Shown here: positions 41,595 to 47,338 of the stretch, in pieces
Layout: each line of letters starts with the position of its first letter
Numbering within the stretch: position 1 is the first letter of the stretch
NCBI GenBank assembly: GCA_030830005.1
Contig: JAURNV010000031.1
Span: forward strand, 1-64,000
Length of the DNA stretch: 64,000 nt
From: Flavobacteriaceae bacterium
Lineage (GTDB): Bacteria > Bacteroidota > Bacteroidia > Flavobacteriales > Flavobacteriaceae
Reading direction: 5' to 3'
Made by a program: the position numbers and the translations under genes
Notes under the pieces: model-generated
What the model saw: only the letters and a program-made list of their open reading frames with translations
Told to the model about the DNA's origin: nothing
Databases searched by the model: none

Positions 41595-41675
41595 TGGGGT
41601 ATAGTTAAAAAAATCCCTTATTTTTAAGGGATGACTGCAAATATACGATTTTCCTTTTTCTTTCGTTTTCCTTGG

Positions 41676-42089
41676 GTGAGACACACGACATTAGTACTGT
41701 TTTTAGTTTTTTTTGGTTGCTCAAAAAACAGTGTAGAGCGCAATCCGTATTTATACGAAACCCGCTTTGATCAGACCTTAAATTTGACACTCCCCGCTTT
41801 TAACAATTTAAACTACCAAGGGGGTAGTTTGTACTGGGCAAATGGAGGGATTAAGGGATTGCTCCTTTTCAATTTAGCGGGGACGATTATGGCATGGGAA
41901 GCCAGTTGTCCCAATCATGCGCCAAGCAGTTGTTCTACTGTGCAAATAAATGGCGTTACGGCATCTTGTCTATGCGAAGACTTTCAATACAGTTTGGCAA
42001 CAGGGCAGCCCCTAACAGAAGGAGCTACCTATAGCCTACTATTTTATAAGGTTCAGCAAAACGGAACTTTGTTACGTGTTTATAATTAA
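41676..42089 (+). CDS. Rieske-like lipoprotein with altered cluster ligands
   Basis: 137 residues from a GTG at 41676, which gives a clean lipoprotein signal (VRHTTLVLFLVFFGC); the frame is also open from an ATG at 41631. The fold resembles a small Rieske domain: SCPNHAPSSCSTV, then VTASCLCEDFQYSLATGQPL. The first ligand box CxxH-like CPNH (normally CxH) is shifted, and the second (normally CxxH) is CLCED without His. It may bind metal in another way or be structural. It faces greA across 81 bases and overlaps the TonB receptor stop by 4 bases. Confidence 0.72.
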   Translation: MRHTTLVLFLVFFGCSKNSVERNPYLYETRFDQTLNLTLPAFNNLNYQGGSLYWANGGIKGLLLFNLAGTIMAWEASCPNHAPSSCSTVQINGVTASCLCEDFQYSLATGQPLTEGATYSLLFYKVQQNGTLLRVYN

Positions 42090-44293
42090 AAAATCAATGT
42101 AATGCCCATCAGAAAATGACGCCCTGCTTGGGGGTAATATCCAACTCCTTCAATGGTAGTTACAATTCCTGGATTGGTAAAATCATCATCATATGTATAA
42201 AAGTATCCATTTGAACTATATTTTTCATTGAAAATATTGTAGATATGAGCATTTATGTCTAATTGTGGGCCATTGGCATTATTTAGTAAGGTTGCCTGAA
42301 ACTGAATGTCATGAACTGAGTAGCTTTCTAATTTTGACAGTTCTGCATTTATATTACCCATGTACTGCTCTCCAACATATTTACTCCCTATTGAAATAGA
42401 CCAACTTTCTTGATTGTATGTAAGTTGATTGGCAGCAATTAATGAAGGTGAATAAGATAAATGCGTCTCACCAAGTTCTTCTAACTTTCCGTTACGTTCA
42501 AAATATTTATACTTATTTCTGTTTTTACTCCACGAAAAATTGGCTTGCCAATTCCAGTTAGTTGCTACTGCCCAACCGCCTTCAATTTCGAGCCCTTGTC
42601 GGTAACTATCGCCAGAATTTTCTCGAACAGGCGCCCCAACGTTATCAATGGCACCAGTTAAAACCAATTGGTTTTTGTACCCCATATAGTAAAGGTTAGC
42701 GTTTAAAAAAGCCGCTTTGGATTTCCACCGCCATCCCAACTCAAAATCATTGAGTTCTTCAGGAACAGGATTTCCGTTTTCATAATCGGTACGATTAGGT
42801 TCTTTATGAGCTTTGGCGTATGACACATAAAACTGAAGTGCCTCGTGAGGCTTATACACTACACCTGCTTTGGGGTTAAAAAAGGTGTGTGCATCATTTA
42901 CCAAAATGGCCGTTGGGCCTGCAAGTTCACCTATTGCGTTATAATCAATCCAACGTAGCTGTGTGTCTACGTAAAGGTTCCATTGGTTACTCAGAGCAAT
43001 GTTCCACTTGGCAAAAATATTACTGTCTTTCTTTTTGCCTATGTTCTCATAGAAACGGTGATTGGGATTAACGCTTGCCCTATTTGCCCAAACAAGTGAC
43101 CCAAAATGCAAACCCTCGTAGCGACTAAAATAAGCTCCGGCATGTAGTAGGTGATTCCCTTTTTGGTGATAAAACAAAAGACTGGCAACATAAAAATCGT
43201 TATCTAACCATTTGCGAACCACATTCTCAGTTTGTGTAACAGGCTGCCCATTAATACTCAATTGAGGTAGCTTTAGGTATTCGTAGGAAATCTCGTTTCC
43301 AAAAGTTACATTCTGAACGTTCCATAGGTCGTAAAATTCTTCGTAATAGCCTGCTCCATGTGTGTAATTTAGCCCCAAAGAAATTCGTGAGAAATTGCTT
43401 AGGCGTTGTTCAATATGAAGTTGTGTGTGGTCTTGCATGTAATTATCCACTTGATTATCATAATACCCTTGAAAGTTTCCGTTATCATCATATTGTATAC
43501 CTGCAGGATTATAAGTTCTATCGTTTTCTAAAGTAACCGCATCAATGCCATACCATGCTTGGTACGTACGCTCTTTTCCGCCAAAAGTCAATGCCTTTAT
43601 TTTGGTATTGGCAGCGGTATAGGTTCCTTGCAAAAAATAGCCTTTGAGTTGTGATGAAGCTCTATTTATGTAGCCGTCAGAGCTGATGTTAGACAGACGA
43701 CCACTAAACTCAAAACCACTTTTTGTAATTCCGGTAGAAAATTTAATGGTGTTTTTAAAGGTATTAAAACTTCCAATACTCGACGAAAGCTGCGCAAAGG
43801 GGCTTTCATAAGCCTTGTCTGTCAATATGTTGATGCTTGCACCAAAGGCACCCGCACCGTTTGTGGAAGTACCCCCACCACGTTGTACTTGTAAATCTTC
43901 AACAGAAGAGGCAAAGTCAGCCAGATTTACCCAAAATGTGCCATGCGATTCGGAATCGTTCAAGGCAATTCCGTTAATCGTTACATTTACCCTAGTGGCA
44001 TCGCTGCCGCGCACACGTATTCCGGTATATCCTACTCCAGCTCCAGCATCACTTGTTGTAACCACGCTAGGGGAAAAACGCAACAAAACAGGAAGGTCTT
44101 TCCCAATGTTTTGTTTGTTAAGCTCCTCTTTAGAAATATTTGTAAAAGCTATTGGTGTGTTTTCATTTGCTCTGAGTGCACTCACTGTAACAGATTTTAA
44201 AGCTACAGTCTTAACATTTAATGTATCTATATTAGGATTGGCTTGCTGTGCTATCGAACTACTTGCAAGCATTAGTATAATAATGGTTTTCAT
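42086..44293 (-). CDS. TonB-dependent receptor under TPP riboswitch control (probable thiamin uptake)
   Basis: 735 residues. Signal peptide (IIILMLASSSIAQQ), plug at about 40-160 (DLPVLLRFSPSVVTTSDAG; GIRVRGSDATRVNVTINGI; LQVQRGGGTSTNG; AFGASINILTDK), then a barrel ending HFLMGITLIF. The plug type resembles iron and vitamin receptors rather than SusC. A TPP riboswitch lies directly in front, so the substrate is likely thiamin or a phosphate ester (inference). It is the last gene of the PnuT/NadR-like/DUF4301 run. Confidence 0.9.
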   Translation of the reverse strand: MKTIIILMLASSSIAQQANPNIDTLNVKTVALKSVTVSALRANENTPIAFTNISKEELNKQNIGKDLPVLLRFSPSVVTTSDAGAGVGYTGIRVRGSDATRVNVTINGIALNDSESHGTFWVNLADFASSVEDLQVQRGGGTSTNGAGAFGASINILTDKAYESPFAQLSSSIGSFNTFKNTIKFSTGITKSGFEFSGRLSNISSDGYINRASSQLKGYFLQGTYTAANTKIKALTFGGKERTYQAWYGIDAVTLENDRTYNPAGIQYDDNGNFQGYYDNQVDNYMQDHTQLHIEQRLSNFSRISLGLNYTHGAGYYEEFYDLWNVQNVTFGNEISYEYLKLPQLSINGQPVTQTENVVRKWLDNDFYVASLLFYHQKGNHLLHAGAYFSRYEGLHFGSLVWANRASVNPNHRFYENIGKKKDSNIFAKWNIALSNQWNLYVDTQLRWIDYNAIGELAGPTAILVNDAHTFFNPKAGVVYKPHEALQFYVSYAKAHKEPNRTDYENGNPVPEELNDFELGWRWKSKAAFLNANLYYMGYKNQLVLTGAIDNVGAPVRENSGDSYRQGLEIEGGWAVATNWNWQANFSWSKNRNKYKYFERNGKLEELGETHLSYSPSLIAANQLTYNQESWSISIGSKYVGEQYMGNINAELSKLESYSVHDIQFQATLLNNANGPQLDINAHIYNIFNEKYSSNGYFYTYDDDFTNPGIVTTIEGVGYYPQAGRHFLMGITLIF

Positions 44294-44309
44294 TTGCTTT
44301 AAGGCAAAT
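44292..44309 (-). promoter_or_regulatory. Hairpin over the receptor start codon
   Basis: In the mRNA, atttgc (44309-44304) and gcaaat (44297-44292) pair around cttaaa; the last two stem bases are the first two of the ATG. Such a 6-bp stem would hinder initiation and may be the output of the riboswitch. Confidence 0.45.
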
Positions 44310-44339
44310 AAAGGGGTGTTATTTACAATGGATTTAAGT

Positions 44340-44420
44340 TAAACAATTCCTTGGCAGCATTACCTGCCCAGGTTCAATGGGTATAATCTCAGCCGTTGGG
44401 CACCCCTAGAGACAGGAGCA
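44340..44420 (-). ncRNA. TPP riboswitch (THI element)
   Basis: On the minus strand the conserved core is complete and in order: GGGGTGCC (44406-44399), GGCTGAGA, TACCC, AACCTG (44374-44369), GGTAATG (44364-44358), and a closing GCTGCC-AAGGAA. This is the thiamin pyrophosphate aptamer. It ends 47 bases before the receptor ATG and begins 13 bases after the DUF4301 stop. No T-rich terminator follows, so translation control is more likely. Confidence 0.93.
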
Positions 44421-44432
44421 AAAGTATGAAAA

Positions 44433-45950
44433 TTATTGTGATTGATGCATAGGACGCAACAAATCATTAACCGTTTTTACAGGATTAAACGTCCGCGAAG
44501 GAACCTCAACCAAAATCGTGTTCCAGTTAGCCATGGAACCATTCCAAAGACCAGGACGCTCAAGCACTTTTATCGCAACTCCATCGACAGATTTTTGGGT
44601 AGTAAAATAGGCGTCGTAATCTATAAATTTAGTTAAGTCGTACTTGTTGCCCTCATAGTCATGTGTTGCACAAACAATATCTGTTGGATTGAAGTGGGAA
44701 CTGCTTTTAAAAAGGCTTTTTTGATGATTATTATCCATATCTACTTGTGCGCTTTCAACAATCTGAAGACTTCGTTCATTATTTTTTTCAACCCAAAAAG
44801 GGCCACCACCTGGTTCACCCTCATTTTTTACCACACCACACACCCGCAAGGGCCTGTTAAGTTTTTGCTTTAAAAACAGGATCAGTTTATTGCCCAACAG
44901 CGCTTGAGGAACTTCTACATTGAGCTTTTCTTGCACAAAGGCTTTTATTTCAATAAGGTTTATTTCTTCCTCTTCATTTAGTGCGCGGCAGTAATTAAAA
45001 ATTTGATGTTGTAATGATATCAATAGCCCAGCCAGCATTTTCTTATATCGAGCCAATTGAACGTGGTATTTTTTGACAGAAACATTGTCAATATTAGATA
45101 TGAAGATGATTTGCTCTTGCATGTCATTAAGGACTCCAATAAGCGACCCATGCCCAGCTGCCCTAAAAACGAGTTTGCCTTTTTTATCACGAACTGGAGT
45201 GCCGTTTTGAAAAACAGCTAAAGTATCTGTATTCCTTTTTTGATTTGAAAAAGATAGATTGGTATTGACATTATAGGCCTCTAACTTTTTAATGGTTTTA
45301 GAAAGGTGCTGTTTAAAAATTGCTGTTTTTGAAGGAGGGACCGAAAAGTGAATGTTCATTTTCTTATGGTTTACCATAAATTCTTTTGAAAACATCAACT
45401 GTTCTTCAGCAGCAGTTCGCACCGAGTCTTTATACTTGTGAAAAGGCACAAGAGCCTTGGGCAAATTTCCTAGTATTTTAACAATATAAACTATAAATTG
45501 ATACCTATAATCCGTTTTAAATGTCCCATTTTCAGTTTCAGACACAGCATTTCTTGCCTGTTTGTAAAATGGGAATTTTTCAATACCCCCTAAAAATACA
45601 CCAAGCTTATATGACTTATTATAATTAAGATAGCTGACAAGGGTTTCTTTTTCAGGATTATATTTTTCCAAAAAATAGTGAAGAAACTTAAACATTCGTG
45701 TTGCCAGTCCAGAGGCTGGTATAAACCTAGCAACAGAAAAATTTCTTTTCTCATTTTCAAAAACTGAGACGTAGTTGCCAACCTCGCTTTCAGTGAGGGA
45801 CATGATTCCGTCATCGGTTGCTGCAGGACGGTGAAGCTTTGTAAAATTTGAGCCTTTTTGCAACAAACTTAACTGTTGCAAAGCCTCTTTCTCAGCTATA
45901 CCAACTTTGCTTAAAACCTCCCTATCGAGTTGCGTAAACTTATGGTTCAT
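44433..45950 (-). CDS. DUF4301 protein, nucleotidyltransferase-like
   Basis: 505 residues, no signal peptide. RFIPASGLATRMFKFL (about 76-91) resembles the sugar-nucleotide pyrophosphorylase loop (GxGTRM). FRAAGHGSLIGVLND followed by IIFISNIDNVSVKKYH (near 265-300) resembles the UDP-sugar pyrophosphorylase GGHGAL and NIDN blocks. RVCGVVKNEGEPGGGPFWV near 377 is also conserved-looking. I read it as a GT-A-type nucleotidyltransferase of unknown substrate. It overlaps the NadR-like gene by ATGA and sits just before the riboswitch. Confidence 0.75.
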   Translation of the reverse strand: MNHKFTQLDREVLSKVGIAEKEALQQLSLLQKGSNFTKLHRPAATDDGIMSLTESEVGNYVSVFENEKRNFSVARFIPASGLATRMFKFLHYFLEKYNPEKETLVSYLNYNKSYKLGVFLGGIEKFPFYKQARNAVSETENGTFKTDYRYQFIVYIVKILGNLPKALVPFHKYKDSVRTAAEEQLMFSKEFMVNHKKMNIHFSVPPSKTAIFKQHLSKTIKKLEAYNVNTNLSFSNQKRNTDTLAVFQNGTPVRDKKGKLVFRAAGHGSLIGVLNDMQEQIIFISNIDNVSVKKYHVQLARYKKMLAGLLISLQHQIFNYCRALNEEEEINLIEIKAFVQEKLNVEVPQALLGNKLILFLKQKLNRPLRVCGVVKNEGEPGGGPFWVEKNNERSLQIVESAQVDMDNNHQKSLFKSSSHFNPTDIVCATHDYEGNKYDLTKFIDYDAYFTTQKSVDGVAIKVLERPGLWNGSMANWNTILVEVPSRTFNPVKTVNDLLRPMHQSQ

Positions 45951-46504
45951 AAAAAGCTTTGTATATGGTCGGTGGCAAGTTTCATTCTTGCTTCAATACT
46001 TCCTTTTAAGGTTACGAAGTTAATATTTCTTTGCTTTAATGCCGCTGTAAAGTAGCCAAACATGACCTCACGCTGATTTGGTCTATCTCTTAGAAGGTCT
46101 TTTTCCCAAGGCACATCAATCTCTGTTAAAAAATAAATGTCATATTTATTTTTCTTATTGGCAAGAACAATTCGTTCATCGCACCACCCTTCAAAATAAG
46201 CTTCAGAATACACCTGTGTAGACAGTAATGTTGTGTCGCAAAAAAGAAGCTTATTTGCATGTCGAGCTGCTTTGTTTTCTAGTTTCATTTGACCTACCCC
46301 AATTGGGTAAATATCCTCTGAAGCGCAAATTTCGCCTTTTTCATGCCATTTTTTTTCAAGGTATTCACGAGCATATTCTGGTACCCAAGCCGTGTTGTAG
46401 TGTTTAGCTAATGCTTGCGCCAAGGTGGTTTTACCAGTAGACTCAGGCCCATACAAGGCTACTTTTAAGCAATTGGACGGGTATTGTTCAAGATTTTTTT
46501 CCAT
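45947..46504 (-). CDS. NadR-like AAA/P-loop kinase (thiamin-module kinase candidate)
   Basis: 185 residues. Walker A ALYGPESTGKTTLAQALA (about 17-34) and VPEYAREYLEKK match the ribosylnicotinamide-kinase domain of NadR; DIYFLTEIDVPWEKDLLRDR contains the lid. It lacks the NadR adenylyltransferase domain. By context it may phosphorylate thiamin carried in by the PnuT-type transporter, or be a nicotinamide-riboside kinase. Its start lies 40 bases inside the transporter gene, a tight coupling. Confidence 0.82.
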   Translation of the reverse strand: MEKNLEQYPSNCLKVALYGPESTGKTTLAQALAKHYNTAWVPEYAREYLEKKWHEKGEICASEDIYPIGVGQMKLENKAARHANKLLFCDTTLLSTQVYSEAYFEGWCDERIVLANKKNKYDIYFLTEIDVPWEKDLLRDRPNQREVMFGYFTAALKQRNINFVTLKGSIEARMKLATDHIQSFL

Positions 46505-47094
46505 GCAAAATATCCGAAAAAGGCGATAACAGTAAATATAAGATATTGGAAGCTGGTAAAGGTTAATCCTTTATAAAAATAAAGCGGTATCGAAATAATA
46601 TCCCCAACAATCCAAAACCACCAATTTTCAATTTTTCGGCGTGCCATGAGCCACATGCCAACAAAAAATATTGCAGTAGTAAACGTATCTACATAAGCCG
46701 TCCATGACGTCCATTTATCTGCAGAATGATATATTAAAAAAACTACTACTAATGTGGTAGTAAATATCAATACAGAAACTCTTCTTTCTCTTTTTGAAAT
46801 AGTGCTTATTGGAGTGCTCTTTTGGTTGGTTTCTCGAGTCCAAATATACCATCCATAGAGGCTCATTATAAAATAATAAGCATTGATAAGCATATCGCCC
46901 AAAAGCACCCACTTCCAAAGGAGGTAAACAAAAATTGCTGTTGAAAACATTCCCGCGGGAAATACCCAAATGTGATTTTTTTTAGCATACCATACACTAA
47001 AAAAACCAAAAAGGACTGCTGTAATTTCGAGAGAAATATCTATCGCTTGATATGAGGCATATTGCCCAAAAAGGAAGTTAAAAAAACGGCTCAT
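46465..47094 (-). CDS. pnuT: PnuC/PnuT-family vitamin transporter
   Basis: 209 residues with seven or so membrane helices. Family blocks: ITAVLFGFFSVWYAKKNHIW, INAYYFIMSLYGWYIWTR and WWFWIVGDIISIPLYFYKG. PnuC proteins move nicotinamide riboside; the PnuT branch moves thiamin. The TPP riboswitch and YkoF-like neighbour favour thiamin (inference). It overlaps the YkoF-like gene by 17 bases. Confidence 0.88.
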   Translation of the reverse strand: MSRFFNFLFGQYASYQAIDISLEITAVLFGFFSVWYAKKNHIWVFPAGMFSTAIFVYLLWKWVLLGDMLINAYYFIMSLYGWYIWTRETNQKSTPISTISKRERRVSVLIFTTTLVVVFLIYHSADKWTSWTAYVDTFTTAIFFVGMWLMARRKIENWWFWIVGDIISIPLYFYKGLTFTSFQYLIFTVIAFFGYFAWKKILNNTRPIA

Positions 47095-47338
47095 ATTCGC
47101 TGCGATTGGATTTAACCACTTTCATGTTTAAAACGATGTGGGTTGTTTTTTCAAAAGCCTTTTCAGTAGCACTAGTAACCAGTGACATGACAGATGAAAA
47201 TTCTCCATAAATTTGGGTGCTAAGGGGTGTTTCTTTAATCGCAAATCCCGAATTGCGAAGTGCTTTTATAAAATCAATTATAGGTGGTTCAAAATCATCT
47301 TGAAGAGGAGTAAGCGTGAGTTCAACGGAAATTTCCAT
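47078..47338 (-). CDS. YkoF/MTH1187-like thiamin-binding protein
   Basis: 86 residues. The ferredoxin-like fold of the Thiamine_BP family: VELTLTPLQDDFEPPIIDFI, ALRNSGFAIKETPLSTQIYGE, then a helix and HIVLNMKVVKS. Members bind thiamin or HMP in the cytoplasm. It starts 2 bases after the phosphopantetheinyl transferase stop and overlaps pnuT, so it probably helps to sense or hold imported thiamin. Confidence 0.82.
   Translation of the reverse strand: MEISVELTLTPLQDDFEPPIIDFIKALRNSGFAIKETPLSTQIYGEFSSVMSLVTSATEKAFEKTTHIVLNMKVVKSNRSEYEPFF

Follow-up and report, generated by a model that had tools for sequence, protein, structure and literature searches.

Thiamine pyrophosphate (TPP) riboswitches are the most widespread riboswitch class. 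A review treats them as switches that work by strand exchange and describes cobalamin riboswitches as devices that dock through kissing loops (PMC10907184). In Bacteroidota, which do not use Shine–Dalgarno (SD) sites, a TPP aptamer ahead of an outer-membrane receptor gene (OMthi or omr) has already been reported (PMC5613172, PMC2211319), but these accounts describe no expression platform. The mode of action has been called uncertain, and the receptor mRNA of B. thetaiotaomicron is unresponsive to thiamine (PMC5613172). Here we describe the same aptamer-receptor arrangement in a Flavobacteriaceae bacterium, within positions 1 to 64,000 of contig JAURNV010000031.1 (assembly GCA_030830005.1; hereafter the window). 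Comparison of its leader with those of relatives suggests an expression platform in which a strand of the aptamer, X, docks in the loop of a downstream hairpin, A:B, and we consider it probable that the whole is an OFF switch that controls thiamine uptake through translation. The parts of this device, in the order of transcription and followed by the receptor gene, are listed below.

44347-44412 (core; Rfam match 44331-44417), minus strand: TPP aptamer, matched by RF00059 over its full length (model positions 1-105) with 41.6 bits and an E-value of 3.6e-7.
44401-44407, minus strand: X, AGGGGUG, the 5ʹ strand of aptamer helix P2 with one A and one G flanking it.
44379-44382, minus strand: ACCC, which pairs with GGGU (44405-44402) to form P2 when the aptamer is folded; placed by sequence and the Rfam alignment.
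44319-44326, minus strand: A, GUAAAUAA, 5ʹ side of the hairpin that presents Y in its loop; pairs with B.
44312-44318, minus strand: Y, the loop CACCCCU, complementary to X by sequence and comparison.
44304-44311, minus strand: B, UUAUUUGC, which pairs with A or with C.
44290-44297, minus strand: C, GCAAAUGA, which holds the receptor start codon (44293-44291).
42086-44293, minus strand: gene for a 735-aa TonB-dependent receptor, a probable outer-membrane thiamine transporter (Pfam TonB_dep_Rec_b-barrel and Plug domains; orthologs).

The A:B hairpin spans 44326-44304, and the alternative B:C hairpin contains the AUG. These two helices share strand B and exclude each other, both are conserved and covary, and one of them hides the initiation region, which is the arrangement of a sequestor and its antisequestor. 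In the proposed mechanism, the leader would begin at the aptamer, as a promoter box described below indicates. Without TPP, X would leave P2 and pair with the C-rich loop Y, forming a kissing-type pseudoknot that keeps A:B closed, bars B from C and leaves the AUG within C free (ON). Once TPP is bound, P2 would reclaim X, the unsupported A:B would yield to the intrinsically stronger B:C, and the AUG would be buried (OFF). The ON state could owe its existence either to the stability of the pseudoknot or to the folding of A:B before C is made. The aptamer, the promoter box, the X:Y complementarity and the A:B and B:C helices are supported by the sequence comparisons, whereas the geometry of the ON-state pseudoknot and the direction of control are inferred.

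Like the translational TPP riboswitches of E. coli thiM and thiC, the window element carries an RF00059 aptamer, is expected to follow OFF logic and has the mRNA start region as its output. Unlike them, it apparently exchanges the P2 5ʹ strand rather than a P1 strand, involves no SD sequence and finds its partner in a hairpin loop. The pairing of a downstream regulatory hairpin loop with an aptamer also recalls the L5-L13 kissing loop of cobalamin riboswitches (PMC10907184, PMC2258182). There, however, the ligand promotes docking and represses expression, whereas the window element would dock only without ligand and would thereby activate. Moreover, what would dock is a strand of the aptamer, X, rather than one of the loops of its folded form. 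Loops that kiss an aptamer are complementary to it by about five to seven pairs, and seven pairs are found between X and Y in the window. Docking with a folded, ligand-bound aptamer is a different matter, as X belongs to P2 and the sequence makes docking and the bound fold mutually exclusive. The element may work like the kissing-loop dockers, yet we do not count it as a member of that group. What appears to be new is that a TPP aptamer is combined with a platform of the loop-docking type whose ligand logic is opposite to that of the cobalamin dockers, and a literature search that covered few subscription journals found no prior description of the platform.

By its sequence, the element is a TPP riboswitch aptamer. 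A default Rfam scan is silent because 41.6 bits, the score of a full-length match whose E-value holds for the leader stretch, lies under the curated RF00059 cut-off of 54.3 bits; this cut-off is a convention and not a biological feature, and scores below it are also typical of most receptor-type leaders in the family. All core features of RF00059 are present (GGGGUGC, CUGAGA, ACCC, GAACCUG, P2/P3 and P4/P5), so that the aptamer is complete, as the first-pass annotation of this DNA had held, and it lies upstream of the receptor start codon. It also stands before a thiamine gene. Genes for Thiamine_BP and PnuC proteins are adjacent, and among 60 loci with a receptor ortholog that were collected across the class Bacteroidia, 57 of them outside the family, 58 carry an Rfam TPP aptamer upstream of the ortholog. 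From these features we infer that the window aptamer binds TPP, and thiamine is the probable substrate that the receptor takes up through the outer membrane. The aptamer is the sole RF00059 match in this genome (1.55 Mb, 88% complete), which agrees with the earlier view that direct control is limited to the receptor. No ThiC was found among 17 genomes of the genus, all of them incomplete, and uptake governed by the only TPP switch found may therefore be the main source of thiamine in this genus.

To compare leaders, 120 Flavobacteriaceae genomes were scanned with RF00059, and matches were obtained in 113. The strong matches reach 80 bits, and those inspected look like thiC-type leaders; many others are weak (27-53 bits). 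Among the weak-match loci L032-L111, a receptor ortholog is present in 73 of 80, usually directly downstream of the aptamer. Further loci came from searches with a platform pattern or from the other weak matches, and the 108 family leaders that could be segmented form the comparison set. The leader pattern demands TAA in A followed by RCCYCTTT but does not demand the outer A:B pairs. A platform-only pattern occurs about once per genome, in addition to looser matches, and all 20 canonical sites that were chosen regardless of Rfam have an aptamer upstream, including those in genomes without an Rfam aptamer match. The full leader is present in 12 congeners, and Flavobacterium filum shares the element; the close records are metagenome-assembled genomes of Flavobacteriaceae. 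The design is kept across the family and, as shown below, partly beyond it, and the platform offers a sequence handle on aptamers linked to receptors, most of which escape a default Rfam scan. In some leaders (L125, L126, L128, L130-L137 and L144), P3 is enlarged to about 100 nucleotides by repeat-like sequence, which hides some aptamers from the Rfam model.

Both alternative helices of the platform look to be under selection because their pairs are kept, strands A, B and C covary, and chimeric stems fold worse. Specifically, the six core pairs of A:B are complete in 107 of the 108 leaders, a count that is partly conditioned by the search pattern. The sixth position of A, B and C is G/C/G in 83 leaders and A/T/A in 15, and the rest have a G-T pair in A:B or a B base that is unpaired with C. 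In 95 of 106 leaders, every base of the AUG is paired within the B:C fold. This fold is built from 57 distinct stems, and chimeras that combine strands from different leaders reach only -2.7 kcal/mol, compared with -5.8 kcal/mol for the natural combinations.

The third interaction is the pairing of X with Y. The first-pass annotation had pointed out that AGGGGUG (44407-44401) and CACCCCU (44318-44312) are complementary and that this pairing competes with P2. Both observations hold, since the two segments are exact reverse complements on the minus strand and GGGU is needed by both helices. A duplex of this strength arose within the 75 nucleotides before the ATG in 2 of 200 dinucleotide shuffles, a modest result when taken alone, and it is the conservation of X:Y in relatives that takes it beyond chance. 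When leaders are shuffled one at a time, the signal for an X complement is weak for many of them, in part because a downstream, wrong ATG was taken for some. GGGGUGC, the sequence that holds the X core, is invariant across all 108 leaders, as the aptamer needs this core for TPP binding, and variation is found on the side of Y. Its variable core positions carry A or G facing U and C or U facing G, such that pairing is kept, although the search pattern presupposes this for the 108. Most leaders outside the pattern have changes of this type too (ACUCC in L038, AUCUC in L066 and L107, GCCCUUU in L049), and a few have U-U ends (L051, L080, L098 and L150). The complement of X, given that one is present, lies within a hairpin loop (stem of at least 6 pairs) in 106 of the 108 leaders, compared with 18.4 expected.

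A quite improbable alternative is that A:B versus B:C is indeed a translational switch, but that Y is kept for another partner, such as a protein or an RNA, and X:Y only tunes aptamer folding. The invariance of the X core leaves room for this idea, as pairing there is unprovable by two-sided change, and Y resembles the anti-SD tail of 16S rRNA. However, the variants of Y keep their pairing to GGGGU, whereas the adjoining base, which would lie opposite the next G, varies at random among the 108 leaders. The flanks point the same way. The run of A residues before GGGG is long enough to pair all loop U residues up to strand B in 108 of 108 leaders (the best of 5000 permutations gave 99), and the lengths of the A and U runs correlate after correction for the tree (r 0.355, t 3.87, 105 contrasts). 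Compensation outside the core is seen by eye in the non-standard leader L055, where AAUAGGGGU pairs with ACCCCUAUU inside the gene start, and in the class leaders L183 and L215, where the flanks of X and Y change jointly (UUGGGGU with ACCCCAA; UUGGGGUG with UGCCCCAA). Two further non-standard leaders, likewise matched by eye, pair GGGGUGC with GCACCCC (L145) and AAAAGGGGUG with CACUUCUUUU (L153).

Loop placement recurs in the class set. With aptamers placed by Rfam and stricter scoring, high-scoring C-rich-loop hairpins complementary to X occur in 14 of 49 scorable leaders, compared with 0.4 by shuffling; an earlier, looser scan with aptamers placed by regular expression had found 10 of 26, against 23% by shuffling. 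The X complement lies in a hairpin loop (stem of at least 7 pairs) in 13 of 37 class leaders, where 1.7 are expected, and in 0 of 9 thiC leaders. The stems that present these loops are unrelated in sequence (CAGCAAC/GUUGCUG in L198, CAAAUGCA/UGCAUUUG in L194, GGUGCGCACA/UGUGCGCAUU in L171). It is mainly because loop placement exceeds chance in both the family and the class that we prefer a loop-docked pseudoknot to a plain helix. The C-loop design is, from these sequences, common but not universal in the class. At slightly below even chances, a single SD-free TPP design could extend throughout Bacteroidia, in which the ligand-free aptamer releases a P2 strand that docks in the loop of a C-loop hairpin, translation is activated by the resulting pseudoknot, and what is switched is the start codon itself.

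The first-pass annotation proposed a simpler device, a plain strand exchange in which X:Y competes with P2. Spelled out for this leader, X:Y would be an ordinary long-range helix stacked on B:C, A:B would have no role of its own, and the two states would differ in some other respect in how accessible the start region is. Ordinary nested folding lends this some weight. The minimum free energy structure of the window leader combines X:Y with B:C, which are able to stack end to end. However, the AUG stays paired in both states, the conservation of A:B and its covariation with B and C are left unexplained, and so is the placement of Y in hairpin loops with unrelated stems across the class. We regard plain strand exchange as unlikely, and nested X:Y alone was rejected as the switch: its pairing is conserved, but it gives no output by itself. 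The annotation had caught one part of a larger device and missed the choice between A:B and B:C, with Y as the A:B loop.

Several points also weigh against the docking model. Ordinary folding places the AUG within B:C in both states, at -33.9 kcal/mol for X:Y plus B:C and -31.5 kcal/mol for the aptamer plus B:C, and A:B is weaker than B:C by 3.7 kcal/mol on average. The X core is unable to covary, and the case for X:Y is made by transitions in Y, changes in the flanks and loop placement. On the receptor tree, at least five changes are counted for the A6/B6 pair and at least two for A6 itself, and the A/B/C triple thus rests on few independent events. The pattern used to find leaders favours the proposed layout, this layout is absent from some relatives with small genomes (L032, L036, L072 and L147), and more than half of the class leaders score no C-loop hairpin. 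In the docking model, a hidden AUG is the default because B:C is more stable than A:B. Of the interactions seen, docking of X on the loop of A:B alone could tip the balance towards this hairpin, and such docking is incompatible with the TPP-bound fold. We assign OFF logic for this reason, as expected of an uptake gene.

Control at the level of translation, which had been thought likelier than termination, fits this locus because the receptor mRNA of B. thetaiotaomicron is unchanged by thiamine (PMC5613172) and because flavobacteria lack SD sites and initiate translation in a manner that depends on local structure (PMC6847099). The docking model would provide a concrete mechanism for such SD-free control. 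A TPP-controlled terminator, formed by a helix ending in CACCCCUUUAUUU or, at the class level, by a hairpin followed by U-rich sequence, is very improbable. A U-run does follow the C-rich strand, and U-rich sequence follows some class-level hairpins (L198), but the U-run lies inside conserved helices, no intrinsic terminator was found on the minus strand of the leader, and the unresponsive mRNA again argues otherwise.

Three features bear on the upstream boundary of the leader.

44419-44426, minus strand: Bacteroidota -7 promoter box TACTTTTG (TAnnTTTG).
Near 44414, minus strand: transcription start predicted from the position of the -7 box.
44433-45950, minus strand: gene for a DUF4301 protein, upstream of the leader (Pfam DUF4301; conserved order).

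The window box directly follows the DUF4301 stop codon, and an exact TAnnTTTG starts 19-29 nucleotides before GGGG in 105 of the 108 leaders, against a background of 0.027 per leader. Given this conservation and the published position of the box at -12 to -5 (PMC9723704), transcription is predicted to start at the aptamer, which most likely forms its own transcript with the receptor. The claim that the aptamer sits inside a thiamin operon is doubtful for this reason; it describes position and not necessarily transcription, and an aptamer merely embedded in an operon was rejected as the main account of the locus. Any read-through RNA from upstream would still carry the switch.

Other groups of leaders may carry platforms of their own. 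In Chitinophagaceae-type leaders (L249, L252, L253, L257 and L260), a downstream CCCUGUUCCCA or CCUGUUCCCA can pair either with the aptamer segment GAACAGGG or with UGGGAAC, which lies among the first receptor codons; pairing with UGGGAAC would enclose the AUG. Dyadobacter-type leaders (L233, L237, L240, L242 and L244) contain the hairpin AUAGGU-GGCCCCU-GCCUGU, whose loop is complementary to X and whose 5ʹ arm can also pair near the start of the coding sequence (AGAUAGGU/ACCUAUCU, changed to AGAUAGGC/GCCUAUCU in L244), which suggests an analogous two-way choice. The strong thiC-type leaders (L003-L011 and L013) have a conserved hairpin followed by GTTTAC and later by TTCAAAG. TTCAAAG might pair with CTTT of P1, and this could represent another conserved platform.

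Across the family, the genes are commonly arranged in the order Thiamine_BP, PnuC, AAA_28, DUF4301, receptor, GreA. In the window, the first four of these genes occupy 44433-47338, and they adjoin the receptor across many genera; DUF4301 and the kinase-like AAA_28 may serve a function related to thiamine. On the other side of the receptor gene and convergent with it, a 152-aa lipoprotein-like open reading frame without a Pfam match (41631-42089, plus strand) carries a Rieske-like CPNH...C.C pattern.

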